From the NCBI RefSeq assembly GCF_030012215.1, contig NZ_JASCXX010000001.1, forward strand, positions 186,001 through 250,000: 64,000 nucleotides of DNA. Reading direction: 5' to 3'. The DNA is from Anaerobaca lacustris. GTDB lineage: Bacteria > Planctomycetota > Phycisphaerae > Sedimentisphaerales > Anaerobacaceae. The first letter of the stretch is position 1. Each line of letters begins with the position of its first letter. Position numbers and translations under genes: made by a program. Under the pieces are notes generated by a model. That model did no database searches. It was not told the origin of the DNA and saw only the letters and a list, made by a program, of their open reading frames with translations. Below, one piece after another: positions 29,039-50,954 of the stretch.

Positions 29039-30178
29039 ATGGAAGAAAGCAACGTGGGTCGAAACCGCATCCCTACGCCACCGGATCACAGCCGGGGATT
29101 GATCCTGCTGCTGGTGGCGCTGCTGGTGGTGCTGCTCTTCTGGCAGATCAGGCCCTGGCTCTTTGGCGTGCACGACCGCCATGCCACGCCGCGCGCCATC
29201 ACACCGCGAGGCGACCTTGCAGAACACGAGAAGAGCACGATCGAGCTGTTTCGGCAGGCCTCGCCATCGGTGGTGTTCATCACCAGTAAGGCCGTTCGAC
29301 GAGATCTGTTCAGTCTGTATGCTACCGAAGTGCCCCAGGGGACGGGGTCGGGCTTCGTCTGGGATGAAAACGGGTACATCGTGACGAATTTCCACGTCAT
29401 CAAGGACGCCCAGGCCGCCGACGTCACCCTGGCGGACCATTCGACGTGGCCGGCCCGACTCGTCGGGGCCGAGCCGGACAAGGATCTGGCCGTCCTGAAG
29501 ATCGACACGCAGGGCCGCGCCCTGCCCGCCATAGCCGTCGGCACTTCGAGCGACCTCGAGGTCGGACAGCAGGTCTTTGCCATCGGCAATCCCTTCGGAT
29601 TCGACCAGACCCTGACGACCGGCGTGATCAGTGGCCTGGGCCGTGTGATCCAGTCGCTGACGGGTCGTCCCATCGAGGGGGTGATCCAGACCGATGCGGC
29701 TATCAATCCGGGCAACTCCGGCGGGCCGCTGCTGGACAGCGCCGGCCGACTGATCGGGATCAACACCGCCATCGTCAGTCCCTCCGGGGCGTACGCCGGG
29801 ATCGGTTTTGCCGTGCCGGTCGACGTGGTCAATCGTCTGGTTCCGCAGATCATTCGCTATGGCCGCCCGCCCAGGGCCGGTCTCGGTGTGATCTTCTTCG
29901 AGGACTACATCGTGCGGCGCCTTGGCATGGAAGGCGTGCTCATCCGCGAGGTGAGGTCCGGCAGCGCCGCCGAGAAGGCGGGTCTGCGATCGGCGCGGTA
30001 CGACTCTCGCGGCCGAATGGCGGGCGATCTGATCGTCGCCGTGGACGGCCAGCCGGTGCGCAACAGCCGCGATCTGTACCGTCTTCTCGACGTACGCGAG
30101 GTTGGAGATCGAGTGGTGCTGAGCGTGTGGCGTCCGGAGGGAAAGACGGATATCGAAGTGACGCTGCAATCGCTATGA
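29039..30178 (+). CDS. HtrA/DegP-like trypsin-fold serine protease with one PDZ domain
   Basis: The 379-aa S1C protease is anchored by one N-terminal membrane helix (residues 20-40, LILLLVALLVVLLFWQI). The triad is H119 in TNFHVI, D149 in DKDLAVL and S227 in INPGNSGGP. One PDZ domain covers about 285-375 (GVLIREVRSGSAAEKAGLRS; GDLIVAVDGQPVRNSRDLYR). Such proteases degrade or sense misfolded envelope proteins. A near-consensus promoter lies upstream. The stop overlaps the start of the PHP phosphatase gene (ATGA), so the two are translationally coupled, which links envelope quality control with exopolysaccharide control. Confidence 0.93.
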   Translation: MEESNVGRNRIPTPPDHSRGLILLLVALLVVLLFWQIRPWLFGVHDRHATPRAITPRGDLAEHEKSTIELFRQASPSVVFITSKAVRRDLFSLYATEVPQGTGSGFVWDENGYIVTNFHVIKDAQAADVTLADHSTWPARLVGAEPDKDLAVLKIDTQGRALPAIAVGTSSDLEVGQQVFAIGNPFGFDQTLTTGVISGLGRVIQSLTGRPIEGVIQTDAAINPGNSGGPLLDSAGRLIGINTAIVSPSGAYAGIGFAVPVDVVNRLVPQIIRYGRPPRAGLGVIFFEDYIVRRLGMEGVLIREVRSGSAAEKAGLRSARYDSRGRMAGDLIVAVDGQPVRNSRDLYRLLDVREVGDRVVLSVWRPEGKTDIEVTLQSL

Positions 30179-30960
30179 CGCCGCAGGACTCCAATACAAC
30201 CAAAGGCGCCGTAGAGGCGAGCTTCATCGACGTGCACTGTCACTGCCTGCCCGGTCTGGACGACGGTCCGCCCGATGTGCCGGCGGCCCTGACGCTGTGT
30301 CGGGCCCTCGCGGCCGACCGCATCGCGACCGTCGTGGCCACGCCTCACCAACTCGGACGCTACGACGGACGCTACGACGCCCGGATGATCCGACGGGCGG
30401 TCGCGCAGCTCAATGAGCTGCTTGCGGAGGCCCGGATCCCATTGAGCGTTCTGCCGGGGGCGGATATTCGAATCGACGAACGGATCGAAGACATGGTGCG
30501 ATCCGATGAGATCGTTACAGTGGCCGATGGGAAGCGATACCTGCTGCTTGAACTGCCGCATGAGGTCTTCATCGATCCGGAGATGCTGCTGGCAAGGCTG
30601 GTGGAGGGGGGGCTCTGCGGCGTCATCACGCACCCGGAACGTCATGCGTTCCTTGCGGAACGCCCGGAGTTCGTCCGTCGGTGGGTCCCATATCGGCCGT
30701 GCCTGCAGATTACCGCGGGCAGTTTTCTCGGCGGTTTCGGCCGGCGAAGCGAAGAGGCCGCATGGGCGTTCCTCAGAGAGCCGCTGCCCTTGGCCGTTGC
30801 CACCGACGCCCACGACACCGCCGGGCGCGCCCCCTGTATGAGCGAGGCGTATCGCCTGCTCCATCGGTACGTCGGCCGCGACGAGGCCGACATTCTCTGC
30901 ATGGAGAACCCGCGACGACTCGTCGCAGGAGAGGCGCTGGTCAGCCTGAATGTGGAGTGA
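30175..30960 (+). CDS. PHP-domain tyrosine phosphatase (CpsB/YwqE-like)
   Basis: The 261-aa protein has the metal-binding PHP motifs of CpsB/CapC/YwqE enzymes: IDVHCHCLPGLDDGPPDV at the N-terminus, ATPHQLGRY, LLELPHE, ITHPERHAFL, and ATDAHDTAGRAP near the end. These manganese-dependent enzymes dephosphorylate bacterial tyrosine kinases that control capsule or EPS export. ATG 30175 overlaps the htrA stop by the ATGA pattern; the frame upstream of it overlaps htrA and is not coding. No tyrosine kinase is in the window, but a UDP-sugar dehydrogenase follows, consistent with polysaccharide synthesis. Confidence 0.85.
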   Translation: MTPQDSNTTKGAVEASFIDVHCHCLPGLDDGPPDVPAALTLCRALAADRIATVVATPHQLGRYDGRYDARMIRRAVAQLNELLAEARIPLSVLPGADIRIDERIEDMVRSDEIVTVADGKRYLLLELPHEVFIDPEMLLARLVEGGLCGVITHPERHAFLAERPEFVRRWVPYRPCLQITAGSFLGGFGRRSEEAAWAFLREPLPLAVATDAHDTAGRAPCMSEAYRLLHRYVGRDEADILCMENPRRLVAGEALVSLNVE

Positions 30961-31155
30961 GACGGGCGAGGGCAGAGAGCAGTCATGGGAGAGGCCGGAA
31001 TGTTGCCATATCCGCTTGGGGCCATTTTTCTTGGGGCAAGACTGTCCGAAATGCAAATTCCACTGTCACGCCTGCCGATATTGGGATATGAACGCATCGA
31101 TCCGGCCCGGGTGTCGGGCGCGATAAGATAAGGTCTTTGTGATGGCGAGGTCATT

Positions 31156-32478
31156 GTGGCAAAACGCAAGAGTGCAAATCCGAAAGGCGACGGCGCGTCC
31201 GTCTATGTAGGCATCGTCGGTTTGGGCTACGTCGGACTGCCGCTGGCACGCGAGTTCTGCAAGGGCGGGGCGAAGGTCCTGGGCTTCGACGTCAATTCCA
31301 AGGCGGTCGCGACGATCAATCGGGGTCGCAGTCCGATAAAGCACATCCCGCACACCACCATGTCGGAGATGATCGGGTCGGGCCAGTTTCGGGCCACTGA
31401 GGACATGCGCGAACTGTCGAAGCCGGACGCGATTCTGATCTGCGTGCCTACGCCTTTGACCAAGAACCGCGAACCCGATCTTCAATACGTCGAGACCACC
31501 TGTCACACAATCGCCAAATACCTCCGCAAGGGCCAGCTTGTGGTTCTGGAGAGCACGACCTATCCCGGCACGACCCGCGAAGTCATGCTGCCGATTCTCG
31601 AACAGTCGGGGCTCAAGGCCGAGAAGGACTTCTTCCTGGCCTATTCGCCCGAGCGCGAGGACCCGGGCAACAAAAGCTTCCAGACGTCCACGATCCCCAA
31701 GGTGATCGGCGGCTACGGCAAGGAGAGCCTGCGCCGGGCGCTGGAAGTCTACCGCTGTGCGATCGAGACGCTGGTTCCCGTGGACAACTGCGAAGTGGCC
31801 GAGGCGGCCAAAATCCTCGAGAACACCTATCGCTGCATCAACATCGCCCTGGTCAACGAGCTGAAGATGCTCTTCGACCGCATGGGCATCGACGTCTGGG
31901 AGGTCATTCGAGCCGCCGGCACGAAGCCGTTCGGATTCAGTGCGTTCTATCCGGGCCCCGGCCTGGGCGGCCACTGCATCCCGATCGATCCGTTCTATCT
32001 GACGTGGAAGGCGCGCCAGTACGCGATGCCGACGCGTTTCATCGAGCTGGCCGGCGAGATCAACACGGGCATGCCCGAATACGTCGTGCAACGGACGGCC
32101 GACGCCCTCAACGAGCGGCGCAAGAGCCTCAAGGGCTCACGGGTCCTGGTGCTCGGCCTGGCCTATAAGCCGGACATCGACGACGTGCGCGAATCGCCGT
32201 CGCTGGAACTGATCGAGATGCTCAAGGAAAAGGGCGCCAAGGTCGATTACAACGATCCCTACATCCCGCAGACACATAAGCAGCGCGAGTACGACCTTCG
32301 GATGAAGAGCAAGCCGCTGACCGCCAAGACCCTTGCCGGCTACGACGCCGTGCTGATCGCCACCAACCACAGCGAATATGACTATGCCTGGATCGTCAGG
32401 CACGCCAGGCTGGTTGTGGACACGCGCAACGCCACGGCGGCGGTTCGCAGCGGGCGCAGCAAGATCGTCAAGGCGTGA
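31156..32478 (+). CDS. wbpA: UDP-N-acetylglucosamine 6-dehydrogenase (WbpA/WecC-like)
   Basis: The 440-aa enzyme would oxidise C6 of a UDP-N-acetylhexosamine to the uronic acid for a surface glycan. The N-terminal Rossmann fold is VGIVGLGYVGLPLAREF, then CVPTPLTKNREPDL and ESTTYPGTT. The central domain has YSPERED and LENTYRCINIALVNEL. The catalytic Cys is C274 in YPGPGLGGHCIPIDPFYLTW, the form typical of WbpA-type enzymes rather than UDP-glucose dehydrogenase. The C-terminal domain has VLGLAYKPDIDDVRESPSLE. The start is GTG 31156 after GCGAGG. Neighbouring glycan genes (the PHP phosphatase, and rml genes 9 kb away) agree. The exact substrate (GlcNAc or ManNAc form) is not certain. Confidence 0.88.
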   Translation: MAKRKSANPKGDGASVYVGIVGLGYVGLPLAREFCKGGAKVLGFDVNSKAVATINRGRSPIKHIPHTTMSEMIGSGQFRATEDMRELSKPDAILICVPTPLTKNREPDLQYVETTCHTIAKYLRKGQLVVLESTTYPGTTREVMLPILEQSGLKAEKDFFLAYSPEREDPGNKSFQTSTIPKVIGGYGKESLRRALEVYRCAIETLVPVDNCEVAEAAKILENTYRCINIALVNELKMLFDRMGIDVWEVIRAAGTKPFGFSAFYPGPGLGGHCIPIDPFYLTWKARQYAMPTRFIELAGEINTGMPEYVVQRTADALNERRKSLKGSRVLVLGLAYKPDIDDVRESPSLELIEMLKEKGAKVDYNDPYIPQTHKQREYDLRMKSKPLTAKTLAGYDAVLIATNHSEYDYAWIVRHARLVVDTRNATAAVRSGRSKIVKA

Positions 32479-32498: not shown

Positions 32499-35024
32499 TC
32501 AGTCGGCGACGGCGTCCGCGTCTGCCTCGACATGTTGGTTGTCGGACAGGATCGCGAGGAGCAGTTGGAACTGTAGCTCGTAGAGATTTCGCATCGCCGC
32601 GTTGGGAATCGTGTCACCGGTCACGCCCATGTTCAGGTCGGTGAATTGCGCGCCGAAGCCAACTACGGTGACGGTCCCAGTGCCGAATCCGACGGTTGCG
32701 GCCACCGGACGACCTGTGATTCGAATCAGGGGTGTGCCGCCTTCGATCTGGCCGGAATTCTGCGTTGTGACCCCGGCGGGCCAGCCTTCGGGCGTCTCCA
32801 AGGGCCCGGCCAGCAGCGGGCTGTTGACGATACGCATACCGAACGGGTGCAGCAGGGTGTTGGCGGTCGATCGGCCGTTCGCGGGCGCGTCGATCACAAG
32901 GATTCTGCCGCCCCCGTCAACATAGTCGGCCAGTTGTCTGCGGAAGTCGGCGTCGACGTCGCGGCGGGGATACAGAAATACGAGCAGATCACCGCTGAAC
33001 GCGTCGCGACCTTCGCGGCGTGAGGTGAAATAGCCCAGCCTCAGGATCCAGCGTTCGAAGATGCCAAACCCATCGGCCTGGCCGCTGATGAACCCGCTCC
33101 TGGACAGCGGTGCGTCGCACACGGTGCGGTCGATGACAACGTGTGTGAACGGCCGGAGGGCCGTGGGAACCGGCATGGCCGACCGATGCATCGCTCGCAC
33201 GGCGACGCCCGCGGCAGTCACGCCGAGCAGGATGCCGGCCAGCAGAACGAGCCGGCCACCGGGCCATCTCCGGCTGAGGATCAGAGCGCCGGCCGCGAGC
33301 AGAAGCCCCATTCCGACCACAATCGTCTGCGAATCCCGGGAAGGAGCCTTGTGGTTGAGCCATTCGAGCATGCCCAGCATCAGCTCGGCCTTTCCCGGCT
33401 CGAACGTCGAGAAGTTGGAGAAGATCGTCGAGTCGCCGAACGCCGCGACGCGGCCGGCGCCGTGGTCCATCGCCCACAACTGCACGAACGCGCCGTATCG
33501 CGCATCGGCTCGGTCCTCGACCTGGGGATAGTAGTTGCTCGCGTGGTAGTCGGCCGGAAGGCTGCGAAGGCCAGTGGCCCGGATGGCGGCCTGGCCCGAA
33601 CTGGCGCCCGGATCGATCGAGCACGAGACCGCGAAATCCATCGTCGGCATGTGCTGGACGATGGGGTGCGGCACGAGCGGCGGGTGGTAGAGTTGCTCGA
33701 AGGGCGTGTCGATATCGAACAGGCAGTCGTGGCGAAAGCGGAAGCCGAACCGCGCAGCGATGTCGTTGAGATAGGTTCCGGAGTTGAATACGTTGGTGTG
33801 CTCGCCGATCAGCAGCAGGCCGCCGCCGTTCTCGACGAATCGCACGATGTGCTCGACTTCTTCCGTCGTGTAGCGCGCGGTCGGGACCTTTACGACGAGA
33901 ACGTCGCATTCGGCCAGCGTGTTGGCGTCGATAGGGTCGTAAACCCGATCCATGTCGTAGAAGCGGGAGCTGTAATCGTAGATGCAGGCGTAGTTGTAGC
34001 CAGACTCCTGACCGTACCAGTTGGGATCGTAAGGCCGGTCAGTGCGCTCCCAGTTCGAGCGGTGCTCGTCCACCCAGATGCGTCCCTGCTTGCGCGAGCC
34101 GGACGGGGCCCACAGCAGCCCCATCGCCACAAGCAGTGCTCCGACAAACGCCAAGACGACGCACGCGATTCGCCTCGATCGTCTTGGCGTCTCCATCGTT
34201 TGGACCGGTATCGGTGGCGTGCGTACGAAGCGCCAAACCAGGAAGACGGGACCGGCAAGAAGCGCAAGCAGCACCCACGGACTCCAGAAGGGACTCATTA
34301 GCGCCAGCGGCGCATTGTATTCCGTGCGCAGGGCGCGGTGCATGTGGACCGCGATCAGAATCGCGGCTCGCACAGGCAGCCAGAGAGCCACACAGACGAC
34401 CAAACCGAGCAGCCGCGCGAAGGACCGCGATATCGACGCCCTGGAGACGCGCAAGCAGATCAGAGCCATGCCCCCGACCAGAAAGCTGAAGGTCGCCGGG
34501 TCGAGCAGCAGTCCCCACGTGGCGCCGAGACGATGGGTATGGCGGATCGAATACAGGGCCAGCGTTGAGCCATCGAGGGCGGCGGGAATCCCGATCGCCT
34601 GCGCGACGCCGTGGAGCATCGCGGCAAGCTGCGGCGGCAGTTCGTGGGACCGAGCCGTGACGGACTCATAGGCGAGCATTCCGGCTGCCTGCAGAACGAG
34701 GATCGTTCCGGCCATCAGTGCCGCCTGGCCCACCCGGCCGGGCCAGCGCCTTGGGATCGGCGCCGCACAGAGCAACAGGCCCGTCACGAGCAGTGCGACC
34801 GCTGCGCGCCACGGCCAGGGAATCAGGATCAACACGGGCATCAGCAGGGCCGCCGCGATGATCGATTCGATGCGCGCCGGCACGCGGAGATCGACGCCGA
34901 TCAGAAGTCCGGTGCCCGCCAGTACGAGGAGGGCCCAGATCGTCCCGTTGGGATCGTGATAGTAGCCCAGCCCGAAGAGCCACGATGCGCTCAACAATGC
35001 CAAACCGATCCACGCCCGCCTCAT
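32499..35024 (-). CDS. Large polytopic membrane protein B with two GATase1-like modules
   Basis: The 841-aa protein begins with about eight hydrophobic helices (residues 1-265). A large extracytoplasmic module (about 320-560) has the Rossmann-like pattern CDVLVVKVPTARYTTEEVEH, then FVENGGGLLLIGEHTNVFNS, similar to DUF4350/ThuA-type GATase1 folds but without an obvious catalytic Cys. Two helices (about 575-620) follow, then a second such module (about 685-800, LLVFLYPRRDVDADFRRQLA; YVDGGGRILVIDAPAN). The order of the N-terminal helices and the LWLPVRAAILIAVHMH segment recall exosortase/archaeosortase topology, but no exosortase Cys motif is present. Its ATG overlaps the stop of the next paralogue gene (ATGA). 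Function unknown; processing or anchoring of a surface protein is inference. Confidence 0.7.
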   Translation of the reverse strand: MRRAWIGLALLSASWLFGLGYYHDPNGTIWALLVLAGTGLLIGVDLRVPARIESIIAAALLMPVLILIPWPWRAAVALLVTGLLLCAAPIPRRWPGRVGQAALMAGTILVLQAAGMLAYESVTARSHELPPQLAAMLHGVAQAIGIPAALDGSTLALYSIRHTHRLGATWGLLLDPATFSFLVGGMALICLRVSRASISRSFARLLGLVVCVALWLPVRAAILIAVHMHRALRTEYNAPLALMSPFWSPWVLLALLAGPVFLVWRFVRTPPIPVQTMETPRRSRRIACVVLAFVGALLVAMGLLWAPSGSRKQGRIWVDEHRSNWERTDRPYDPNWYGQESGYNYACIYDYSSRFYDMDRVYDPIDANTLAECDVLVVKVPTARYTTEEVEHIVRFVENGGGLLLIGEHTNVFNSGTYLNDIAARFGFRFRHDCLFDIDTPFEQLYHPPLVPHPIVQHMPTMDFAVSCSIDPGASSGQAAIRATGLRSLPADYHASNYYPQVEDRADARYGAFVQLWAMDHGAGRVAAFGDSTIFSNFSTFEPGKAELMLGMLEWLNHKAPSRDSQTIVVGMGLLLAAGALILSRRWPGGRLVLLAGILLGVTAAGVAVRAMHRSAMPVPTALRPFTHVVIDRTVCDAPLSRSGFISGQADGFGIFERWILRLGYFTSRREGRDAFSGDLLVFLYPRRDVDADFRRQLADYVDGGGRILVIDAPANGRSTANTLLHPFGMRIVNSPLLAGPLETPEGWPAGVTTQNSGQIEGGTPLIRITGRPVAATVGFGTGTVTVVGFGAQFTDLNMGVTGDTIPNAAMRNLYELQFQLLLAILSDNQHVEADADAVAD

Positions 35025-37615
35025 GGCGCCACCTCCGCGCCGGCCGGCTGTTCGCGCACGGCCTCAGGCAGCCACATGGGTTCCTCACGCAGGACGGTGA
35101 GCAACCATCGCCAGAAATCGGCGTTCTCGCGGAGGCCCTCGAACGGCTCGCCGCCTTCGCGTTCGAGGTTCTTGTTCATCGCAAAGCCCGTATCGCCGAC
35201 GAGGACGGCCTTGCCTTGGCCGATTCGGCGGAGGACGATGACGGGCTGGTTGTCGCGTCCGTAGGCAATCACGCGGGCGTTCGGGTCGCTCAATCGCACG
35301 GACCAGGCGGCATGGAAGCGCACGTAGACGCGACGGTCGGCTGATTCGAGGTAGGGCGATTTGAAGTGGCCCAGAGGCGCCGGCTCCGGCGCATCGGCCT
35401 GCTCCGGCTCGAATCCAAGTTCTCTGAGCAAGGGCAGGGAAGGCCCCATTCGATCCTGCCCAACGGTGATGACGAATGTGCCGCCGGCGTTGACGAAATC
35501 GACGATTGTCCGCCTCTCGGCCGGCGAGAAGGCGCGGGTTGGTGCGATGGAGACGAGCAGGCCGGCCCGTTCGAGACGCTCGGCCGTCAGTTCGCCCAGC
35601 GACAGCGTCAGATAGCCGCTGCGCATCAGCGTCAGTGCCAGTCCGCCGACGCCGTCGGGCCGCCAGGATTCGCCGCTGTAGGCTTCGAGATGCGATGCGT
35701 CGATATAGGCGAGGTTGTTGGGCGTCGCTCGACGGCCGTCAGGCAGGGGCTTGGCCGCCGCGGATGCCGCCTGGACACAGACCGCCAGCGACGCCGCCAG
35801 GCCGACCGCGACGAGGGCCGTCTTCCCGAGGCTCGGCCGCAGACACAGCATGGCGGCCAGCAGCAGCACGATCAGCGTCCCGACAAGCTGTCGCCACACG
35901 GGGTGCGCATCTCTGGCGCCGACAAGATAGGCGAGAAGCCGAGATGTGAAGACATGGGACGAGACGTTGATCGCATTCGAGAAGCCTGAGGTGTCGCCGA
36001 AGGCGATCACGCGTCCTTTGCCTAGCGGCTGCTCGGCTGCCAGGACGAGATCGCCGAGCTTCTCGCCGGGGTCGTAGCGGCCGTTGCCCATCAGAGCGCG
36101 GGCGCTCGCCTCGTCGCCGGCGTCGTTCCAGCCCCATCGCCCGACGAGCAGCGGCCGCGCCGGCCACTGCGCCCGAACCGAGGCGCCGATGACCACGCCG
36201 AACTCGTTGCGGTCGTCGGCGATTCCCGTGGTCGTCGGATGGGCGAGGGGCTCATACGAGTGCAGCCATCCTCCGACGGCGAAGGTGGCCGAATCGAAGC
36301 GGACGCGCATCGACGTCGGCGACAGGACGTCGTTGAATCGATTGTTGCCTTCGGCGTCGCCGGCGGTGTGTTCGCTAAGCAGCAGCAGCGATCCGCCGCG
36401 TCGTACGAACTGATGGATGCGATCCAGTTGGCCCTCGGCCCAAGGTTCGTGGGGGAAGATCAGCACCAGCGCATCGGCGTCGGCAAGGTCGGCTTCGGAC
36501 AGGTCGGGCGAGATCAGGCTCTCGGCGCCGAGACTCTCGACGAACTCCGGCAGCATCCCATACATCCCACTGGACAGCCTGCCGTAGGAGCCGTGCGTCG
36601 GCTTGAGCCAATTCAGGAAACCTTTTTCGTAGAAGACGATCTTCTTGCCCTCAGCGCTCAAGGCCCTGGTGTCGAGCACTGTGACGATAGGCAGAAGGAT
36701 TGCCATCGCCAACGCCGCCGAGGCCAACGTCAGGCGGGTCCAGGCCAAACGAGCGGGACGCTCGGCCGGCGCGCCGACAGCAGCGGGGGACCATGCCGAC
36801 CAGCGAAGCATCGCGCCGATGACTGTGAGGTGGATCGCGCAGGCCAAAAGAGGCGCGTTCCAGGGCAGCGCTCCGTGTGCCAAGGGGGCGAGCCAGCCCG
36901 TGTTCTGACCGGCCGACTCCGGAATCGCGACCAGGAGATCCGGGACATACGACACGGCGAGGAGATAGACGATGTGACCGACGAGGACCGCTATGAAGCC
37001 GTACACTGCCCTCGCCGTTCGGGGCGGTCTCGTGTGGGCCAGATACAGGCCCCAGAACACGGTGGTTAGAAGCAGGTGGTCCACACCGGCGAAGGTGGCG
37101 CCGACGTGAAGCGGCTGGCTCGCGATCGCGCCCGGCAGAGCGCCGAACGCGCGGCCGAGGGCGTCGGCGAGCTGCCAGATCGAGGGAATGGCCGTACGCG
37201 AGAAGACATAGAGGCCGAAGAGGGCGGTCGCCGTTGCGGCGGCCCGCAGACTGTCTCTGTTTGCGCCTGCGGATGCCCATGCGAGGAAGGCCAGCACGAA
37301 TGCGGCGGCCAGGACATTTGCGGCCGGCAACGGCAGGGCGACCATTGCGATGGCGGCGCCGGCGACAAGCGGGGTCAGCAGAGCGCGCACGCCACGACGT
37401 CGCGTCCCGAGGCCGGGGGCCAGCAGCGCGACTCCAAGCGCGATCAGTGTGCAGGTGCGTCGCGAAGGATGGGCCAGCAGACCCGTCGAGCCGGTGGCAA
37501 ACCAAGCGGCTGCCAGGCCCGACAGCACTGCCAGCAGCGAACCGAAGGCCACCGATGCACCTATCGGAGAATCCACGGCCCGCTGTTCGTGTTGTTCGTG
37601 TTCAACAGAGTGCAC
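35021..37615 (-). CDS. Large polytopic membrane protein A, paralogue of the downstream gene
   Basis: The 864-aa protein has the same layout as its neighbour: about ten hydrophobic helices (20-290), a GATase1-like module (about 375-545, DALVLIFPHEPWAEGQLDRI; FVRRGGSLLLLSEHTAGD), a helix pair (about 570-620), and a second module (about 690-830, LLVSIAPTRAFSPAERRTIV; FVNAGGTFVITVGQDR; LVGDTGFAMNKN). The two proteins are diverged but clearly built alike, so they are tandem duplicates. The start is GTG 37615 with no good ribosome site; a possible promoter lies immediately upstream, so initiation may be leaderless, or a later GTG may be used. The gene ends by ATGA overlap with gene B and begins 135 nt after the heptad-repeat protein gene. 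Confidence 0.7.
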   Translation of the reverse strand: MHSVEHEQHEQRAVDSPIGASVAFGSLLAVLSGLAAAWFATGSTGLLAHPSRRTCTLIALGVALLAPGLGTRRRGVRALLTPLVAGAAIAMVALPLPAANVLAAAFVLAFLAWASAGANRDSLRAAATATALFGLYVFSRTAIPSIWQLADALGRAFGALPGAIASQPLHVGATFAGVDHLLLTTVFWGLYLAHTRPPRTARAVYGFIAVLVGHIVYLLAVSYVPDLLVAIPESAGQNTGWLAPLAHGALPWNAPLLACAIHLTVIGAMLRWSAWSPAAVGAPAERPARLAWTRLTLASAALAMAILLPIVTVLDTRALSAEGKKIVFYEKGFLNWLKPTHGSYGRLSSGMYGMLPEFVESLGAESLISPDLSEADLADADALVLIFPHEPWAEGQLDRIHQFVRRGGSLLLLSEHTAGDAEGNNRFNDVLSPTSMRVRFDSATFAVGGWLHSYEPLAHPTTTGIADDRNEFGVVIGASVRAQWPARPLLVGRWGWNDAGDEASARALMGNGRYDPGEKLGDLVLAAEQPLGKGRVIAFGDTSGFSNAINVSSHVFTSRLLAYLVGARDAHPVWRQLVGTLIVLLLAAMLCLRPSLGKTALVAVGLAASLAVCVQAASAAAKPLPDGRRATPNNLAYIDASHLEAYSGESWRPDGVGGLALTLMRSGYLTLSLGELTAERLERAGLLVSIAPTRAFSPAERRTIVDFVNAGGTFVITVGQDRMGPSLPLLRELGFEPEQADAPEPAPLGHFKSPYLESADRRVYVRFHAAWSVRLSDPNARVIAYGRDNQPVIVLRRIGQGKAVLVGDTGFAMNKNLEREGGEPFEGLRENADFWRWLLTVLREEPMWLPEAVREQPAGAEVAP

Positions 37616-37750: not shown

Positions 37751-40700
37751 CTACCGTGCCATCATCGCGAGATAGTCGGCAACGCTGAGACACTCGGTGT
37801 CCACCACAGGACACATCTGCGCGAGGACGTCGCGCACCGGCCCGCTCATCATCACGAGTCGGTTCGTGGAGCACTTCGTCGTCGTGGCCGGGCACAGCGT
37901 TTCCATCGTCGGGCATTGCGTCAAGGTCGCCGGGCACCGCGTCTCCGTTGCGGGACACCGTGTGACGCTCGGCGGACAGCGGGTCTCGGTGGTCGGGCAC
38001 TGCGTCTCCACTATGGGGCACGTGGTGGACGTTGCCGGGCACTGCGTTTGAACTGCCGGGCAGCGGGTCTGGAAAACGGGACAGTGTGTCTGTGTCGCCG
38101 GGCATTGCGTTTCCGTGGTGGGACACTGGGTGACGCTCGGCGGACATCGGGTTTCCGTACTCGGACATTGCGTCTGCATCGTCGGGCATTGGGTGAGGCT
38201 TGCCGGACACGAGGTCGAGACCGTCGGGCAACTCGTGACCATCGGCGGGCACTGCGTCTCGGTCGTGGGGCATCGCGTCTGCACCGTCGGGCATTGGGTC
38301 ACTGTGGCGGGGCACTTCGTCTCGGTCGCCGGGCACATGGTCTCAAAGGCCGGACAATAGGTGATCGTTGACGGACGCGACGTGACCGGAGGTTCGGCTG
38401 CGCCGTCCGACGTATACCGCAGGCAGAAAGCCATATCGACGGAGTTGTATCGGCTGTCGTAGCACGGATGATCCGCCGGATACCGCAACTCCTGCCAGGG
38501 ACGGGGCAGCTTTGTGCCGAGGTCCCACACGGCGTCGTCGGCGAAGTACTCGGGCCAGCGGCGCGTGTTCCAGCCGAACTGCCCACCCGTGGTCTCCATC
38601 TCGACCGACAGCCAGTAGATGCGAGGATTCTGCTCGGAGCCGTCCTGCAGGAAGGCTTCCTCTGCGTCGATCTCGAAGTCGAGCTGCCAGATCTGCGTGT
38701 TGCTGCCCGCAATCGCCTGTCCTGCGGCCGGGTCCCACCACCACTGGCTACCGACCGTCAGAATGTGATAAAGGTTTTCCTGGAACTGGCCTGCGGCGAA
38801 TTGCTTCTCCCAGAGGACTTCCGGACGGGGCTTGCCGAATGGGTTTGTTTTGTCGGCGCCTTCGGGCCCGGCCGGATCGTCGGCGTAGATGCGCAGCCGC
38901 ACCAGACGGATCTCGCCGCTCTGGTCGTTCATCCACGAGCCCCACAGACGGACGTGGGTCAGCCGGTCGCGGCTGGTGCACTGGAAGTTGTCCGCCAGGG
39001 CGCGAGGGGAGTCCTGCGTGCCGTCGATGCGAATGCCGATGCCACGATGGGTCGGATCAGGCCGCTGGCACCATTTCACATTGGCTGGCTGCGGGTCGAT
39101 CCACACTTCGTGGTCTTCCACCTCCCCGTTGGCCGCCGGGCCGCCGGGGTCGAGACTGCCGTGCGTGCTGATGCGGAATCTGGCGAACGCCTGCCCGACC
39201 GCCGCGTTCTGCGGAACGTCCACCGACAGAACGTGAATGCCGTCCGGCAGGAAACCGTTGAACACCTGTTCGCCGGCCTGCCAGGTCTTATCCGCGTTGA
39301 AGTCGATCCACCCTTGAACGACACCGCCGTCACCGCTGACCTCTACGGTGATAGAGGCCGGCCGGCCCTGGACCAGCGGCGGGATCGACACGCCGTTCTC
39401 GAAGTCGTCGCCCAGCGCGTTTGGATGGGGCAAGCCATCGGTTTCTGCGTCCGGTCGGTCCGACGCGTCGCCCAGCCACGGTCCGGCGATGATGTGTCGA
39501 GCGCCGTTGTGAATCGCCAGGGTCGGATACCCGGCGGGAGCGTCGCCCCAGTCATAGCGCGTCGGACCGGCCTGCATCAGCGGCCGAAGGTAGTAGTCTT
39601 CCGTCTCGCCGTATTGGTAGCCGCCGGCCGGACCCGCGCCGCCCGCCTTGGGCGCAGCCACGATGTCCTGCCATCTCTGTTCCGAGATCGTGATGCGCAC
39701 CCAGATCGGGTCCGCCTCATCCGCCTGAGGGTGCCAGCAGGTGAAGGCCGGCGTCGTCAGCGTGTAGGCGCCAATGCCGACGAGGTTCAGCGGATGATCC
39801 TGAACGGCCCATTCGGGAATCAACGTGCCGTCTGCGGCGACGATCGTGTCGTTCCAATCGCCGTCGCGATTCCAATCGCACCAGACATTGATATAGATTT
39901 CCCCGGCCAGGTGGCTCGTCTTCGTCACGGTGTAGTCCAACGTGGTCCGTCCGAGATGCGGCATGACCACGGGCAGCACGAGCCCGTCGTCGCCGCCGTC
40001 CTGGTTGGACACGCCGGACGGGGGGACGAGGTTGTTGACCCCGTCGTCGTCAGGACCGAGGTCGGCCTCGTTTTCGAGGCTGACCCACGTGCCAAGGAAG
40101 AATGCGTCACGGGGCTGCCGGTGCAGGGGGCCATACGGCGGGCTTCCCGTTCGGTAGACGGTGGGGAAATCGCCTGCGACAGTGCCCGAATACGCCGGCA
40201 TCTTGACGGATGCAAAGTTGCCGGTGCTGTCCGGGGCGTCACCAAGGTCATATTCGGGCGTCGTCTCGTCACCGCCGGTAATAACGAAGGCCAGGTCCAC
40301 AGGGGCCGCCGCGTCCTCATGTCGGTCGGGGTAGTTGACATGCGTCCAGTCCCACGACCCCTGGGTCAGAACGACCGCGCTACTGTTCCATTGCCGCCGG
40401 CGCGACGTGGTCTTCCATGCGAAGGCGCCGTCTGTGGCCGGTGCGGCGACTCGGAGGCCCAGCCAGTAGACGTTTCCTTCGTGTTGAATGAAGGGCTGAT
40501 CCTGCACGCAGAAGTTGTACTGATAGGTCTGTCTGTGGCTTTCAGAGAGATACGTTTCCGTCGCCGGGTCGTACCAGTTGTTGGAGCCGTTGTGGATGTT
40601 CTGGGCGGTGTACTGGCCCGGTGAGAACGTGCGGCTCCAGAGCAGTTCGCCCGGCCGGCCCGATGTGGCGTCGTCGCCGGAGCGGTTCGAGTAGAAGGTC

Positions 40701-41017
40701 AGTTCCAGTGTCAGGCCGTCCGCTCCTTCTTTCGGCAGACTGTCGTTGTGGAAGGAGGTCCAGATGTGGATGTTCCGGATCGGGCCGGTGGCGGTGCAGA
40801 GGAAGTCGTCGGCCAGTGCGGCGGCCGAGAGGTCCACACCGGTGCCGGTCGGGGTGAAATCCGGCAGTTGCGGCCAGTGCATCTTGTGTGGCTGGCCTGC
40901 CTGCCAGTCGCAATCGTTCGTCGCCTGGGCGCGCACCGACGCCGGCAAGGCGACGATGGAGATCAGCACGACGAGAAGAACTGCACGATGTGAACGAGAT
41001 TCTGTTGACCCCTTCAT
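37751..41017 (-). CDS. Secreted GEVED-domain protein ending in 23 CPxxxTx heptads
   Basis: The 1088-aa protein has a signal peptide (VLLVVLISIVALPASVRAQ). Two homologous beta-rich domains flank the middle (about 25-245: LADDFLCTATGPIRNIHIWT; about 650-870: LADNFQCTSRDRLTHVRLWG), a planctomycete surface-protein domain whose database name I cannot verify. Between them lie two GEVED-type domains (closing motifs YGETEDYYLRP and NGEVEDHEVW). Residues 888-1048 are 23 uninterrupted heptads with invariant Cys, Pro and Thr, followed by a 40-residue tail containing CPVVDTEC. ATG 41017 is chosen because AGGAGG lies 8 nt upstream; ATG 41023 is too close. A promoter is at 41217-41244. The paralogous membrane proteins follow on the same strand. 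It is probably a surface stalk or matrix protein; the role is unknown. Confidence 0.8.
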   Translation of the reverse strand: MKGSTESRSHRAVLLVVLISIVALPASVRAQATNDCDWQAGQPHKMHWPQLPDFTPTGTGVDLSAAALADDFLCTATGPIRNIHIWTSFHNDSLPKEGADGLTLELTFYSNRSGDDATSGRPGELLWSRTFSPGQYTAQNIHNGSNNWYDPATETYLSESHRQTYQYNFCVQDQPFIQHEGNVYWLGLRVAAPATDGAFAWKTTSRRRQWNSSAVVLTQGSWDWTHVNYPDRHEDAAAPVDLAFVITGGDETTPEYDLGDAPDSTGNFASVKMPAYSGTVAGDFPTVYRTGSPPYGPLHRQPRDAFFLGTWVSLENEADLGPDDDGVNNLVPPSGVSNQDGGDDGLVLPVVMPHLGRTTLDYTVTKTSHLAGEIYINVWCDWNRDGDWNDTIVAADGTLIPEWAVQDHPLNLVGIGAYTLTTPAFTCWHPQADEADPIWVRITISEQRWQDIVAAPKAGGAGPAGGYQYGETEDYYLRPLMQAGPTRYDWGDAPAGYPTLAIHNGARHIIAGPWLGDASDRPDAETDGLPHPNALGDDFENGVSIPPLVQGRPASITVEVSGDGGVVQGWIDFNADKTWQAGEQVFNGFLPDGIHVLSVDVPQNAAVGQAFARFRISTHGSLDPGGPAANGEVEDHEVWIDPQPANVKWCQRPDPTHRGIGIRIDGTQDSPRALADNFQCTSRDRLTHVRLWGSWMNDQSGEIRLVRLRIYADDPAGPEGADKTNPFGKPRPEVLWEKQFAAGQFQENLYHILTVGSQWWWDPAAGQAIAGSNTQIWQLDFEIDAEEAFLQDGSEQNPRIYWLSVEMETTGGQFGWNTRRWPEYFADDAVWDLGTKLPRPWQELRYPADHPCYDSRYNSVDMAFCLRYTSDGAAEPPVTSRPSTITYCPAFETMCPATETKCPATVTQCPTVQTRCPTTETQCPPMVTSCPTVSTSCPASLTQCPTMQTQCPSTETRCPPSVTQCPTTETQCPATQTHCPVFQTRCPAVQTQCPATSTTCPIVETQCPTTETRCPPSVTRCPATETRCPATLTQCPTMETLCPATTTKCSTNRLVMMSGPVRDVLAQMCPVVDTECLSVADYLAMMAR
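37874..38356 (-). repeat. 23-copy 21-bp / 7-residue repeat (C-P-x-x-x-T-x)
   Basis: Twenty-three consecutive heptads occupy 483 bp. Cys at 1, Pro at 2 and Thr at 6 never vary; positions 3-5 and 7 vary (for example CPATETK, CPTVQTR, CPPSVTQ). Higher-order similarity exists: the block TRCPPSVT occurs twice. The DNA itself is degenerate at third positions, so the protein pattern is under selection and is not a recent microsatellite expansion. Confidence 0.97.
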
Positions 41018-41216
41018 GGTCATACCCTCCTGTCCGTAGCCTTGGACAAAACCTAAACTCGTACGAGGTGCCGCTGGGAACGAAGCGCCGACGTGGGCGT
41101 CCCTTTCCTGGACATTGCGTCTTGGAATCGCGATACATAGAGGCTTGTCGCACGCCGTGTGGAATCACGCGACATGCGCTACGACCTCCTCCAAAGATTG
41201 CCATCAACCCACCGCG

Positions 41217-41708: not shown

Positions 41709-41836
41709 ATACTTTGTCGGCGCCGGACGCGACGCCTGGTCCGGCGTCGTCCTGTTGCCTGTGATCTGAGGCCGATGCGCTGGTTCGCACAGCGCAGGAG
41801 ACGTTGAATGGGTCCGGTTGTGTTGAGGATAGTGCC

Positions 41837-42562
41837 ATGAATATCCGGGGTGTCGTGCTGGCCGGCGGGACGGGATCGCGCCTGCGGCCGCTGACGAAGG
41901 TCACGAACAAGCACTTGCTGCCCGTCGGGCAGAAACCCATGATCTACTATCCCATCGAGAGGCTCACCGGCGTCGGGATCGAAGAGATCCTGATCGTTAC
42001 GGGCGTCGAGCACATGGGCGACGTGGTGGGTCTGCTGGGCTCGGGAAGGGAGTTCGGTTGCCGGTTCACGTACAAGGTCCAGGATGAGGCCGGCGGGATC
42101 GCCCAAGCCCTCGGGCTGGCGGAGAACTTTGCCAACGGACAGTCGATAGCCGTGATCCTGGGCGACAACGTCTTCCAGGGCGACCTCAGGCAACACGCCG
42201 GAGCGTTCATCAAGCAGGGCCAGGGCGCCCGGCTGCTGCTCAAGCAGGTGCCTGATCCCGAGCGGTTCGGCGTCGCTGAGATTTGCGACGGCAGGGTCCT
42301 CGGGATCGAAGAGAAGCCGAAGACGCCGAAGTCCGACTACGCGATCATCGGCGTGTATTTCTATGACGGGACCGTCTTCGACATCATCCGAACGCTCAAA
42401 CCTTCGGCCCGTGGCGAGCTGGAAATCACCGATGTGAACAACGCCTATATTCGCAAGGGGCAGTTGGGATACGATATTCTCGAAGGCTGGTGGACGGACG
42501 CCGGGACGTTCGAGTCCCTCGCCCGGGCCAACGAGTTGGTGCAGAAGGAGCCGCTGAAGTGA
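41837..42562 (+). CDS. rmlA: Glucose-1-phosphate thymidylyltransferase (short RmlA type)
   Basis: The 241-aa nucleotidyltransferase makes dTDP-glucose from dTTP and glucose-1-phosphate. The N-terminal signature is VVLAGGTGSRLRPLTKVTNK, followed by KPMIYYPIE, ILGDNVFQGDL, DPERFGVAE, EEKPKTPKSDYAIIGVYFY and GWWTDAGTFESL. It is the short form of the family, lacking the C-terminal extension of about 50 residues in the long RmlA. ATG 41837 follows GAGGAT. The stop overlaps the rmlD start (GTGA), and rmlD overlaps rmlB, so the three genes are a tight operon for dTDP-rhamnose or a related deoxysugar. Confidence 0.92.
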   Translation: MNIRGVVLAGGTGSRLRPLTKVTNKHLLPVGQKPMIYYPIERLTGVGIEEILIVTGVEHMGDVVGLLGSGREFGCRFTYKVQDEAGGIAQALGLAENFANGQSIAVILGDNVFQGDLRQHAGAFIKQGQGARLLLKQVPDPERFGVAEICDGRVLGIEEKPKTPKSDYAIIGVYFYDGTVFDIIRTLKPSARGELEITDVNNAYIRKGQLGYDILEGWWTDAGTFESLARANELVQKEPLK

Positions 42563-43422
42563 CACGCAAGGGCGCGCACAGGGACAAGCCCGCTATCGCC
42601 GTCCTTGGCGGCAGGGGAATGCTTGGGACCGATCTGGTGGCTGCATGTACTGCCCGAGGGTTCGACGTTCGCGGCTACGACCTGCCGGAGTTTGACATCA
42701 CCGATGCCGAGCATCTGCGAGGTGTGGTCGAGGCGTCGGACGCTATCCTCAACTGCGCCGCCTACACCGACGTCGACGGCGCTGAGACGCATACGGCGCT
42801 GGCCCACCGGGTCAACGCCGAGGCCGTCGGTCATCTCGGCGAACTGGCGGCTCAGTACGGCCGATGGGTTCTGCACTTCAGCACGGATTTCGTCTTTGAC
42901 GGGACGTTCGATCGGCCTTACGTGGAGACCGACGCTCCCAACCCGATCAATGAGTACGGTCGAAGCAAGTTGGCCGGGGAGGAACGGCTGGCCGCGAGCG
43001 GCTGCTCCTATTGTGTGGTTCGGCTTCAGTGGACCTACGGTCTGCACGGAAACAGCTTCGTAACCAAGACCATCGAACGCGCGGTTACCGAGCGGCGGCT
43101 TGCCGTGGTCGAAGACCAGGTCGGCTCACCGACCCCGACGACGCTGGTGGCCGATGTCGCGTGCGAGTTGCTGGGGCGTAAAACGGAAGGGACGTTCCAC
43201 CTGGCCAGCGCCGGCTACGTCAGCAGGTTCGGCGTGACGCAGTTCGTATTCGAGCGGCTCGGACTGAACGTGGAACTGGCGCCGTGTTGCAGCAGCGAAT
43301 ACCTGACGCCGGCCACGCGGCCCTTGAACAGCCGATTCGATTGCCGTAAGATCCAGACCCTGCTGAAAGACCCCATTGAGCCGTGGCAGCAGGGGCTCGA
43401 ACGCTTTCTGAGGCAGCTATGA
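42559..43422 (+). CDS. rmlD: dTDP-4-dehydrorhamnose reductase (RmlD)
   Basis: The 287-aa short-chain dehydrogenase-like protein catalyses the last step to dTDP-L-rhamnose with NAD(P)H. Visible are the Rossmann glycine motif AVLGGRGMLGTDL, DITDAEHLRGV, NCAAYTDVDGAE, the STDFVFDG strand, the catalytic YGRSK, and RLQWTYGLHG. The start is GTG 42559, overlapping the rmlA stop by four bases (GTGA); this gives the normal length for the family, while earlier starts would overlap rmlA heavily. It ends in an ATGA overlap with rmlB. Confidence 0.9.
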   Translation: MTRKGAHRDKPAIAVLGGRGMLGTDLVAACTARGFDVRGYDLPEFDITDAEHLRGVVEASDAILNCAAYTDVDGAETHTALAHRVNAEAVGHLGELAAQYGRWVLHFSTDFVFDGTFDRPYVETDAPNPINEYGRSKLAGEERLAASGCSYCVVRLQWTYGLHGNSFVTKTIERAVTERRLAVVEDQVGSPTPTTLVADVACELLGRKTEGTFHLASAGYVSRFGVTQFVFERLGLNVELAPCCSSEYLTPATRPLNSRFDCRKIQTLLKDPIEPWQQGLERFLRQL

Positions 43423-44432
43423 AACGACTCCTCGTCACCGGCGGCACCGGCTTCATCGGCAGCAACTTCGTCCGAATGGTCCTGTCGGAGCACCCGGACT
43501 GCCTGCTGGTCAATCTCGACAAGCTCACGTACGCCGGCAATCTCGAGAATCTCGCCGAATTTCTGCAGCACGAGAATCATGTGTTCGTCCAAGGTGACAT
43601 CGCCGACGGTTCCCTCGTCGCACGGCTCCTCGACGAGCACCGGATCGAGGCCATCGTCAATTTTGCCGCCGAGAGCCACGTAGACCGCTCGATTGCTGGA
43701 CCGAAGATCTTCATCGACACCAACGTCGGCGGCACGCTGACGCTGCTCGAAGCTGCTCGCGACAAGAAGGTCGCGCGGTTCGTCCAGGTCTCCACCGACG
43801 AGGTCTATGGCTCGCTCGGCTCCGAAGGCATGTTCACCGAGCGGACGCCGCTGCGCCCGAACTCGCCCTATTCGGCCAGCAAGGCCTCGGCCGACCATTT
43901 CGTCCGGGCGTTCGGGCACACCTGGGGTCTGCCGTACAACATCACCCGCTGCTCCAACAACTACGGGCCCTATCAGTTCCCCGAGAAGCTGATCCCGCTG
44001 ATGATCCACAACGCGATCCACGACAAGGAGTTGCCCGTCTACGGCGACGGCCTCTACGTTCGCGACTGGCTGTACGTTTACGACCACTGCACCGCGATCT
44101 GGCGCGTGCTCGAGAGGGCGCCGTCGGGGAAGATCTACAACATCGGCGGGTGCAACGAGAAGCCTAACCTCGAAGTGATCCGGCTCATTCTCAAGCATCT
44201 CGGCAAGCCCGAGACGTTGATCAAGCACGTCAAAGACCGCCCAGGCCACGACCGCCGTTATGCCATCGACGCGAGCAAGATCATTCGCGAGCTGGACTGG
44301 AAACCCTCCGTGACGTTCGAGGAAGGCATCGCCAGGACCATCGACTGGTACCTTGCCAACACCGGATGGCTGGCCCACGTCGTCTCCGGCGACTACCAGA
44401 AGTACTACGACACCATGTACGCCAACCGCTGA
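43419..44432 (+). CDS. rmlB: dTDP-glucose 4,6-dehydratase (RmlB)
   Basis: The 337-aa extended SDR enzyme converts dTDP-glucose to dTDP-4-keto-6-deoxyglucose. Hallmarks are LLVTGGTGFIGSNFV, NLDKLTYAGNLENL, NFAAESHVDRSI, VSTDEVYG, YSASKA (catalytic Tyr/Lys), RCSNNYGPYQFPEKLIP, VRDWLYVYDH and RPGHDRRYAID. ATG 43419 overlaps the rmlD stop (ATGA). The epimerase gene rmlC is not next to it, so either rmlC is elsewhere or the operon makes a different dTDP-6-deoxysugar. Confidence 0.95.
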   Translation: MKRLLVTGGTGFIGSNFVRMVLSEHPDCLLVNLDKLTYAGNLENLAEFLQHENHVFVQGDIADGSLVARLLDEHRIEAIVNFAAESHVDRSIAGPKIFIDTNVGGTLTLLEAARDKKVARFVQVSTDEVYGSLGSEGMFTERTPLRPNSPYSASKASADHFVRAFGHTWGLPYNITRCSNNYGPYQFPEKLIPLMIHNAIHDKELPVYGDGLYVRDWLYVYDHCTAIWRVLERAPSGKIYNIGGCNEKPNLEVIRLILKHLGKPETLIKHVKDRPGHDRRYAIDASKIIRELDWKPSVTFEEGIARTIDWYLANTGWLAHVVSGDYQKYYDTMYANR

Positions 44433-47705: not shown

Positions 47706-48761
47706 CTATCCGTCGGCTCGTTCGATCCAGCCGGCGCCCACGACGCGCCGCAGCGGGCCTTCGTCCGTATAGAAGACAGCGAGTTGCCCCGGGGTGATGG
47801 CCATGTTGGGCTCGTCGAATTCCACGTGCACGGCGTCCTCGGTCGGATGCACCGTGGCAGGTTTGCCTCGGTCGTTATAGCGGATTTTAACGGACGCATG
47901 GAACGACGATTGCGGCGGCTCGATCAGCCAGTTGGCCCGGTTGGCGATCAGGCGGCGGTGCATCACCTCTTCCTTCGGGCCCAGGATCACCGTGTTGCTG
48001 CCAGCGTCGAGACCGATAACATAGTAGGGCTTGCCCATCGCCACGCGCAGGCCGCGCCGCTGGCCGATTGTGAAACGGTGTATGCCCTGGTGTGTGCCGA
48101 GCACCGTGCCCGAACTGTCCACGATCTCACCTTGCCGGATCAACTCGGGGTGGTGCTGTTCGAGCATTGCAGCGTAGTCGTCGTCGGGGATGAAGCAGAT
48201 CTCCTGTGACTCGGCCTTGGCCTCCGTGCCCAGGGCCAGTCGCCGGGCGATCTGGCGGGCCTGGTCCTTGGAGTGTTCGCCCATCGGCAGCAGCACGTGG
48301 GCCAATACGTTGCGGTCGATCATCGACAATGCATAAGACTGGTCTTTGAAAGGGGTTACGCTTTCATAAAGTCCGGCCTGGCCGTCGGTTGTGATGATCC
48401 TGGCGTAGTGGCCGGTCGCGAGGAACTCGGCGCCCGCCTGGCGGGCGAAATCCCAGAGCTTGCCGAACTTGACCAGGCGGTTGCACATTACGCAGGGGTT
48501 GGGCGTGCGGGCCTTGGCGTACTCGCCAAAGAAATAGGCGAGAATCTGCGCGAAGTCGTCGCGCAGATCGAGCACGGTCAAGTGGATGCCAAGTCGGCCG
48601 GCCACCTCCTCGGCTTCTGCCTGGGCGTGGCGGCCCTGCTCGCAGGTAATCATGAACACGCCCTGGACACGGTGGCCCGCTTCAAGTAGCAGGGCGGCGG
48701 CGACCGAACTATCGACGCCCCCGCTGAGAGCGACGACCACATTGTGTCTTTCGGCCGTCAC
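47706..48761 (-). CDS. mnmA: tRNA-specific 2-thiouridylase MnmA
   Basis: The 351-aa enzyme adds sulfur to U34 of tRNA-Lys, -Glu and -Gln. The PP-loop is VVALSGGVDSSVAAALLLEA; the first catalytic Cys is in TPNPCVMCNRLVKF, the second in ESQEICFIPDDDY. The TGHYAR motif, TIGQRRGL and YYVIGLD are typical. The start is GTG 48761, overlapping the stop of the upstream polysaccharide-enzyme gene (GTGA), which gives the family length; earlier starts would overlap that gene. The tRNA-Lys(UUU) gene at 41589 encodes one of its substrates. Confidence 0.94.
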   Translation of the reverse strand: MTAERHNVVVALSGGVDSSVAAALLLEAGHRVQGVFMITCEQGRHAQAEAEEVAGRLGIHLTVLDLRDDFAQILAYFFGEYAKARTPNPCVMCNRLVKFGKLWDFARQAGAEFLATGHYARIITTDGQAGLYESVTPFKDQSYALSMIDRNVLAHVLLPMGEHSKDQARQIARRLALGTEAKAESQEICFIPDDDYAAMLEQHHPELIRQGEIVDSSGTVLGTHQGIHRFTIGQRRGLRVAMGKPYYVIGLDAGSNTVILGPKEEVMHRRLIANRANWLIEPPQSSFHASVKIRYNDRGKPATVHPTEDAVHVEFDEPNMAITPGQLAVFYTDEGPLRRVVGAGWIERADG

Positions 48762-50926: not shown

Positions 50927-50954
50927 GTCGTCGGTCTCCTGGTAAGGCCAGCTC

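Follow-up and report, generated by a model that had tools for sequence, protein, structure and literature searches.

The window analysed here is a 64,000-nucleotide stretch of the genome of Anaerobaca lacustris (contig NZ_JASCXX010000001.1, positions 186,001 to 250,000), and its central feature is a gene on the reverse strand (37751..41023) for a 1090-residue protein whose tail repeats the heptad CPxxxTx 23 times without a break. In the window this array gene is followed by the genes of two membrane proteins, referred to here as A and then B. The array is conserved among close relatives, in several phyla it keeps company with A and B, and the domains attached to it are exchanged between proteins. 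We propose that the array serves as cargo of an envelope system encoded by three genes, in which A and B handle the Cys/Thr units of a surface thread, an interpretation that we judge to have about an even chance of being correct.

The Cysteine Array and Its Protein

By sequence count, the array spans residues 890–1050 (37874..38356, reverse strand), and Cys, Pro and Thr stand at heptad positions 1, 2 and 6 in 23 of 23 units, exactly where the preliminary description of this DNA had placed them. A 24th in-register Cys lies in a degenerate last unit, CSTNRLV (37853..37873, reverse strand). The partial echo of the repeat reported near the C-terminus, CPVVDTEC, is also present, with its two Cys again 7 apart; it falls inside a C-terminal box, CPVVDTECLSVADYLAMMAR (37754..37813, reverse strand), that is conserved in the orthologues according to an alignment of five tails and resembles the ends of some other arrays. 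Cys recurs at spacing 7 in a run of 24, whereas shuffling the whole protein 2000 times gave no run above 4 and shuffling the tail 2000 times gave none above 5. Mean base identity between heptad units is 61%. Bases 1 and 2 of the Cys, Pro and Thr codons are the same across all 23 units, while base 3 agrees in 51% of pairs. Because the first two codon bases are identical and the third bases vary, it is the amino acid pattern that is kept, as had been suggested from the degeneracy of the codons.

The piece preceding the first Cys in the window, RPSTITYC, holds the Pro and Thr of the unit without a Cys. Likewise, this position could be scored in 31 non-redundant arrays, and in 21 of them the seven residues leading up to the first Cys contain P...T and no Cys, so the unit is better written P-x-x-x-T-x-C, with Cys last. 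The window tail has no Pfam family match at E 1 and the whole protein matches no NCBIfam model; weak low-complexity matches exist, and the opinion that the repeat has no known family stands in that no catalogued repeat was found. The only match in the PDB, to granulin (E 0.0016), was attributed to Cys bias, and an above-cut-off Pfam match of MSG to another array locus (L122, E 6e-7) was attributed to low complexity.

The order of elements in the window protein, established from the open reading frame (ORF), its translation and its Pfam domains, is DUF7901, two GEVED stretches, DUF7901, the 24 in-register Cys and the C-terminal box. A probable Sec signal sequence occupies residues 1–33 (40925..41023, reverse strand) and was recognised by eye from its basic start, hydrophobic core and SVRAQA motif. 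Pfam detects DUF7901 (PF25470) at E 6.1e-78 in two stretches, the best at residues 48–249 (40277..40882, reverse strand), and GEVED (PF20009) at E 5e-21 in two stretches (75.7 bits versus a cut-off of 24.4), the best at residues 569–640 (39104..39319, reverse strand). The second DUF7901 lies at about residues 645–870 (38414..39091, reverse strand), with approximate limits taken from the matches of relatives. By eye, the protein end, CLSVADYLAMMAR, contains no membrane segment and no sortase motif was seen in the protein; no C-terminal anchor of known type was recognised.

Orthologues in Close Relatives

The search for orthologues took in the window genome and 60 relatives. In seven other genomes the match covers most of the protein and runs into a Cys array, and an eighth orthologue (G001) is cut by a contig end before the array. 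All seven full-length orthologues keep the array; a relative that retains the gene and lacks the repeat, which the preliminary description had considered, was not found among the 60. The array runs number 23 (G005), 24 (G002), 35 (G004) and 30 (G029), seven shorter runs are present in G023, and the runs that continue up to a stretch of N number at least 29 (G003) and at least 52 (G036). An alignment of the window tail with four others shows hardly any change in the Cys-Pro-Thr lattice, and variation in the residues between. Other DUF7901/GEVED matches (L013–L033) have no array in the stretches examined. The order array–A–B is found with six of the orthologues (G005, G002, G004, G029, G036 and G023); with the seventh (G003) the end of the array, A and B lie at a second place in the genome, and runs of N flank the break on both sides.

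Membrane Proteins A and B

Protein A (864 residues; 35021..37615, reverse strand) has an N-terminal hydrophobic region, judged by eye, and two DUF4350/GIFT stretches (Pfam PF14258, E 4.7e-21). Protein B (841 residues; 32499..35024, reverse strand) matches PF14258, PF09822 and PF23355 over the cut-off, and its gene overlaps that of A by 4 bases. The PF14258 (DUF4350) scores are 76.3 bits for A and 50.5 bits for B, versus a cut-off of 30.4. A and B are called paralogues because tblastn with either protein also finds the loci of the other, mostly at 21–28% identity.

The AlphaFold model of B (pLDDT, the confidence score of the model, 76.5) begins with a helical membrane region that includes three short strands, and two alpha/beta domains follow. 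The second of these (residues 626–836) matches the fold of IFT52 with a Z of 19.2 and a root-mean-square deviation of 2.9 over 192 residues, and also matches site-1 protease (Z 16) and chains of the OST complex (Z about 15), although glycosidase domains of the GH42 type match it as well as the OST chains do (Z up to 15). The fold matches cover mostly residues 538–830, and the first domain is poorly modelled. GIFT domains are proposed, in passages of PMC7226087, to bind sugars, and they occur in the OST subunit Wbp1. A and B resemble the GIFT proteins GldG, IFT52 and Wbp1/OST48 by sequence (PF14258; PF23355), and B does so by the fold of its second domain as well. Unlike these proteins, A and B begin with a large membrane region, come as a pair and usually adjoin a repeat protein.

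Co-occurrence of Arrays with A and B

Association of the array with A and B was examined in a class sample of 298 genomes, using the window tail as the array query, an ORF with at least 10 CPxxxT as the definition of an array and E 1e-20 as the threshold for A. The tail matched 48 of the 298 genomes. The best locus was read in 30 of these, and 18 were kept as arrays and 12 dropped; of the 18 more weakly matching genomes, G293 alone was read. Several of the 12 dropped matches have Cys at spacing 7 and no CPxxxT and are probably 21-base DNA repeats. Six loci (L055, L062, L063, L065, L068 and L070) show such spacing-7 Cys without CPxxxT and inflate low-scoring array searches. A long array is present in 18 genomes, A in 21 and both in 17 (Fisher P 5e-23, uncorrected for kinship). 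The array genome that lacks A (G262) is 57% complete. Among the A genomes outside the joint count, G293 has the shortest array seen. Its ORF (L171:7309-7716, forward strand) encodes 135 residues that begin like a signal sequence and include just 4 Cys, spaced 7 apart (CPVVETKCPTAETQCPTLNTIC); it lies directly upstream of an A fragment and ends 118 bases before the A frame opens. No array was found upstream of A in more than 9 kb (G111) or in 2.1 kb (G239), and in G311, which belongs to the divergent A group, 210 bases of contig precede A. Of 19 array stretches, 11 have A or A plus B alongside.

A wider search used a profile of 16 A proteins, containing no array sequence, on 84,980 species genomes; the profile was built from array-linked A and near relatives are accordingly favoured. 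An array was defined here as an ORF with at least five C-7-C-7-C and eight TxC. The class and phylum stretches come partly from the same assemblies as these loci, and the two sets are not summed. The search gave 49 A loci, 44 of them with B. An array lies nearby in 37: 34 upstream on the same strand, two downstream (L109 and L129) and one on the opposite strand (L135). The 34 upstream arrays lie within 1.4 kb of A, and in six of them about 1.3 kb separates the two. In one of these gaps (L138:7226-8401, forward strand) a gene for a tetratricopeptide repeat (TPR) protein stands between the array and A; in five further loci the array and A stand equally far apart, at about 1.3 kb, where L138 has this gene, and the TPR protein recurs in eight loci (L131–L133, L135–L138 and L140). 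Seven A loci have less than 1.5 kb of upstream sequence and no array, and five with more sequence (L103, L123, L131, L134 and L139) also have none.

According to their titles, the A loci include Planctomycetota, Verrucomicrobiota (with arrays in L116 and L130), Lentisphaerota (with an array in L122) and Desulfonema magnum 4be13 (L129), whose array protein has 143 Cys with another Cys seven residues away. Some taxon labels of metagenome-assembled genomes look wrong; those of L109 (Nitrospira) and L136 (Alphaproteobacteria) are doubtful, and that of L127 (Deltaproteobacteria) may be as well. The membrane genes noted beside the window array in the preliminary description are frequent companions of arrays far beyond the window's genus, and arrays are not confined to planctomycetes.

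Variation among Arrays and Divergent Systems

Among 39 non-redundant arrays, the gap between successive Cys is 7 in 2068 cases, 5 in 145 and 8 in 136, and stretches of other spacing interrupt some arrays (L041). In the 2462 heptads of these arrays Pro and Thr are each kept in 83%, and His and Met are not among the eight commonest residues at any heptad position. The array ORFs of the wide search range from contig-end fragments up to 1675 residues. An array need not be a C-terminal tail, a point that the preliminary description had marked for checking. Five proteins (L112, L115, L122, L078 and L079) have little beyond a signal sequence and the array, and all except L078 adjoin A or A plus B; other array proteins add a DUF7901/GEVED, dockerin, CHRD or PBP-like domain, and some carry domains after the array. 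In one protein (L088:8522-9241, forward strand) a heptad array with 11 CPxxxT precedes, by eye, a cytochrome-c-like CSCH segment (not CxxCH).

More divergent A and B proteins were found in a phylum sample of 392 genomes, with E 1e-30 as the threshold for A. The tail matched 15 of these genomes, of which seven were kept (G431 with only seven CPxxxT) and eight dropped; A is present in 17, a CPxxxT array in seven, including the window's, and both in six. Near some divergent A proteins, in A genomes of this sample that lack heptads, the repeat has another period. A 1670-residue ORF (L186:10304-15316, reverse strand), lying upstream of a divergent A/B pair at about 0.5 kb from A, has repeats of approximately ten residues, TxDPxDxxCx, and 138 Cys. 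An 836-residue ORF (L185:13123-15633, reverse strand), about 2.5 kb upstream of a divergent A, has hexapeptide TCxGxx repeats and 88 Cys, together with two segments that by eye combine a membrane stretch with basic residues. Small Cys-rich ORFs lie just upstream of A in L187 and L179, and no comparable Cys-repeat protein was found next to A in L177, L178, L182 and L188. In a tree of 60 A proteins, those linked to heptad arrays (labelled per locus) form two groups inside one 48-row group (SH-aLRT 97). The most divergent proteins fall outside it, in positions made unsure by long branches.

Comparison with Known Systems

The exosortase/PEP-CTERM systems likewise consist of membrane proteins with dedicated cargo, and some cargo near divergent A and B seems, by eye, to finish with a membrane segment and basic residues, like PEP-CTERM. 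The window cargo differs in that its end, also by eye, shows no C-terminal signal of this type. No Pfam match of A or B to exosortase (PF09721) was found at E 0.1. In hhalign comparisons with shallow profiles, P was 0.059 for A and 0.43, out of register, for B; with deeper profiles (60 rows for A, 51 for B), P was 0.024 and 0.041, with reversed controls at 0.13 and 0.14. The deeper profiles align best at the exosortase catalytic motif, which is suggestive, but the alignment is weak and not significant. The comparison used 13 of 24 exosortase loci, the others having been missed by the motif-based choice of ORFs. The column of the catalytic Cys of the exosortase ACSG motif corresponds, in an uncertain register, to Phe/Tyr175 of A, beside a Thr174 that is invariant in 16 of 16 rows, and to Gly/Glu/Ala/Val171 of B; a Cys is found nine residues further on in 5 of 15 rows of B, not including the window. 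A and B are therefore not classed as exosortases, given the non-significant alignment and a catalytic Cys that, within this uncertainty of register, is not kept.

GEVED is described as part of fibrillar adhesins in passages of PMC10952558, and the window protein likewise has GEVED domains. Unlike those adhesins, it has the Cys heptad array where they have a stalk or anchor. The high-sulfur keratin-associated proteins also contain short tandem units with Cys, Pro and Thr; they are vertebrate, cytoplasmic proteins with other unit lengths, and no homology is claimed. A phage origin of the tail was rejected, as it has no relatives in viral contigs and a single weak PHROGs match (E 0.003), and a plasmid origin was rejected, as B has no plasmid matches. 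One match of B under E 0.001 was obtained among structures of viral proteins.

Neighbouring Genes

Three dTDP-sugar genes lie on the other side of the array gene (41804..44432, forward strand): a nucleotidyltransferase-like gene identified by eye (41804-42562), an RmlD-like gene (42490-43422) and a dehydratase gene (43383-44432), the last two assigned by Pfam. They adjoin the array gene in G005, G002, G004, G001 and G029, and they are probably outside the core system because they were not seen with G036 or G023. Together with CpsB/CapC-like and UDP-sugar dehydrogenase genes, these polysaccharide-type genes flank the three-gene unit of the window (29446-32478 and 41804-44432). Further along, a 771-residue ORF (48758-51073, reverse strand) contains a polysaccharide lyase domain (PF14099, E 6.8e-40). 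A 120-bp tandem repeat occurs at positions 42-261 (1.8 copies, 88% matches).

Proposed System and Alternatives

In the proposed system, a polypeptide carrying from 4 to over 150 Cys in P-x-x-x-T-x-C units would be exported, as suggested by signal sequences recognised by eye, and would stay extended. The GIFT domains of A and B probably face the outside of the membrane, and it is there that A and B would recognise the units and, via Cys and/or Thr, put the thread together, anchor it or modify it. The product would be a surface thread that holds, in the window, an adhesin-like DUF7901/GEVED head. What recurs beside A and B is the array, and what changes is the set of attached domains; the array itself is therefore the most likely object of A and B, and from this companionship we infer that they may act on each unit. 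A more specific form of this proposal, to which we attach only tentative belief, is that T-x-C or P-x-x-x-T-x-C is a modification sequon and that A and B form a new extracytoplasmic enzyme complex decorating or cross-linking each repeat via Thr and/or Cys, which would give a new class of surface polymer in Planctomycetota, Verrucomicrobiota, Lentisphaerota and Desulfonema.

In favour of the three-gene proposal count the gene order shared by the orthologues, the co-occurrence in the class sample and in the wider search, the proteins that are almost all array, the Cys repeats of other period near two divergent A/B pairs, the absence of a predicted tail fold and the proposed sugar binding of GIFT domains. 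Several results weigh against it. Arrays also occur away from A and B: 8 of the 19 array stretches (L077, L078, L081, L082 and L084–L087) have neither. In four of the eight the sequence stops no more than 255 bases past the array, but L078, L081, L085 and L086 extend 7.4 to 11.3 kb beyond it and still show no A or B. The array and A are on different contigs in G367 and G431. Conversely, 11 of the 17 A-bearing genomes of the phylum sample have no heptad array. Cys-poor ORFs of about 2100 residues lie just upstream of A in three genomes (L180 and L181, from one genome, L183 and L184), so A and B are not always found with Cys repeats. No enzyme activity was identifiable in A or B. The AlphaFold model of the tail, built from 11 aligned tails, counts for an extended thread in that no fold is predicted: its pLDDT is 31, the array has no strands and the one helix is short and C-terminal. 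A failed prediction from 11 sequences is, however, not proof of disorder.

This model bears equally on the idea that the heptad generates a regular solenoid or fibre fold whose structural core is made of Cys and Thr. The strict spacing, in which gap 7 far outnumbers gap 5 as the next commonest, would suit such a fold, and it is opposed by the low pLDDT and the lack of strands, which led to the rejection of a solenoid or antifreeze-like structure for the tail, by the repeats of period 6 and approximately 10 near related A and B, and by the other spacings that interrupt the L041 array. A single fold with seven-residue turns is unlikely because related systems adjoin repeats of other period; the repeated Cys/Thr unit is the better common factor, within the limits set by the Cys-poor neighbours and the orphan arrays. 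Similarly improbable is the view that the Cys thiolates serve at the cell surface as ligands of metals, metal sulfide or heme, in the manner of an extracellular metallothionein. Cys is dense and regular as such a role would require, and the L088 array precedes its cytochrome-like segment. However, no metal genes were recognised among the gene families recurring in at least five loci, not all of which are annotated, neither His nor Met ranks among the eight commonest residues at a heptad position, and the L088 protein has no Pfam cytochrome domain or any other Pfam match. The suggestion that the tail is neutral low-complexity sequence generated by DNA slippage draws on the 21-base period that Tandem Repeats Finder reports in two stretches and on the variation of repeat number between relatives; it is already contradicted by the codon and base identity counts and by the recurrence of arrays beside A and B across phyla, and it is extremely improbable.

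A disulfide-crosslinked wall or sheath, in which the Cys of many chains oxidise together and A and B merely aid secretion or anchoring, is a possible, if doubtful, alternative. Passages of PMC2754498 speak of a protein sacculus with disulfide bonds, and the Pro/Cys-rich, disulfide-stabilised planctomycete envelope described in passages of PMC3035269, which name no protein, is alike in composition to the array, which is rich in exactly these residues. The reported chemistry concerns other planctomycetes. Such a wall would not explain the conservation of Thr in 83% of units. Furthermore, the window genome and 21 relatives that have an array (or, in G001, the truncated gene) were searched for the usual membrane oxidants: none of the 22 gave a match for the disulfide oxidant DsbB and 8 of 22 gave one for VKOR, with neither in six genomes of the window's genus; this search covered these two oxidants, and their absence weakens the disulfide idea in that genus.

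Implications

No description of the heptad repeat or of the array–A–B trio turned up in the libraries and literature searched, and the newness of both rests on this absence and on the gene order shared across phyla. A repeat missing from the searched libraries is seen to be part of a multi-phylum gene system, with about 150 evenly spaced Cys at most and two recurrent membrane partners, and the trio suggests a so far undescribed way in which a surface polymer is built or decorated. One carrier of the system is the named strain Desulfonema magnum, whose genome is complete, and the system provides named candidates for Cys/Pro-rich envelope material of the kind reported for planctomycetes. If A and B prove to be exosortase-derived sorting proteins, the system would belong with an already known kind of sorting. 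If instead A and B act on each unit, bacteria would have a new way of building a surface polymer covalently or of decorating one.
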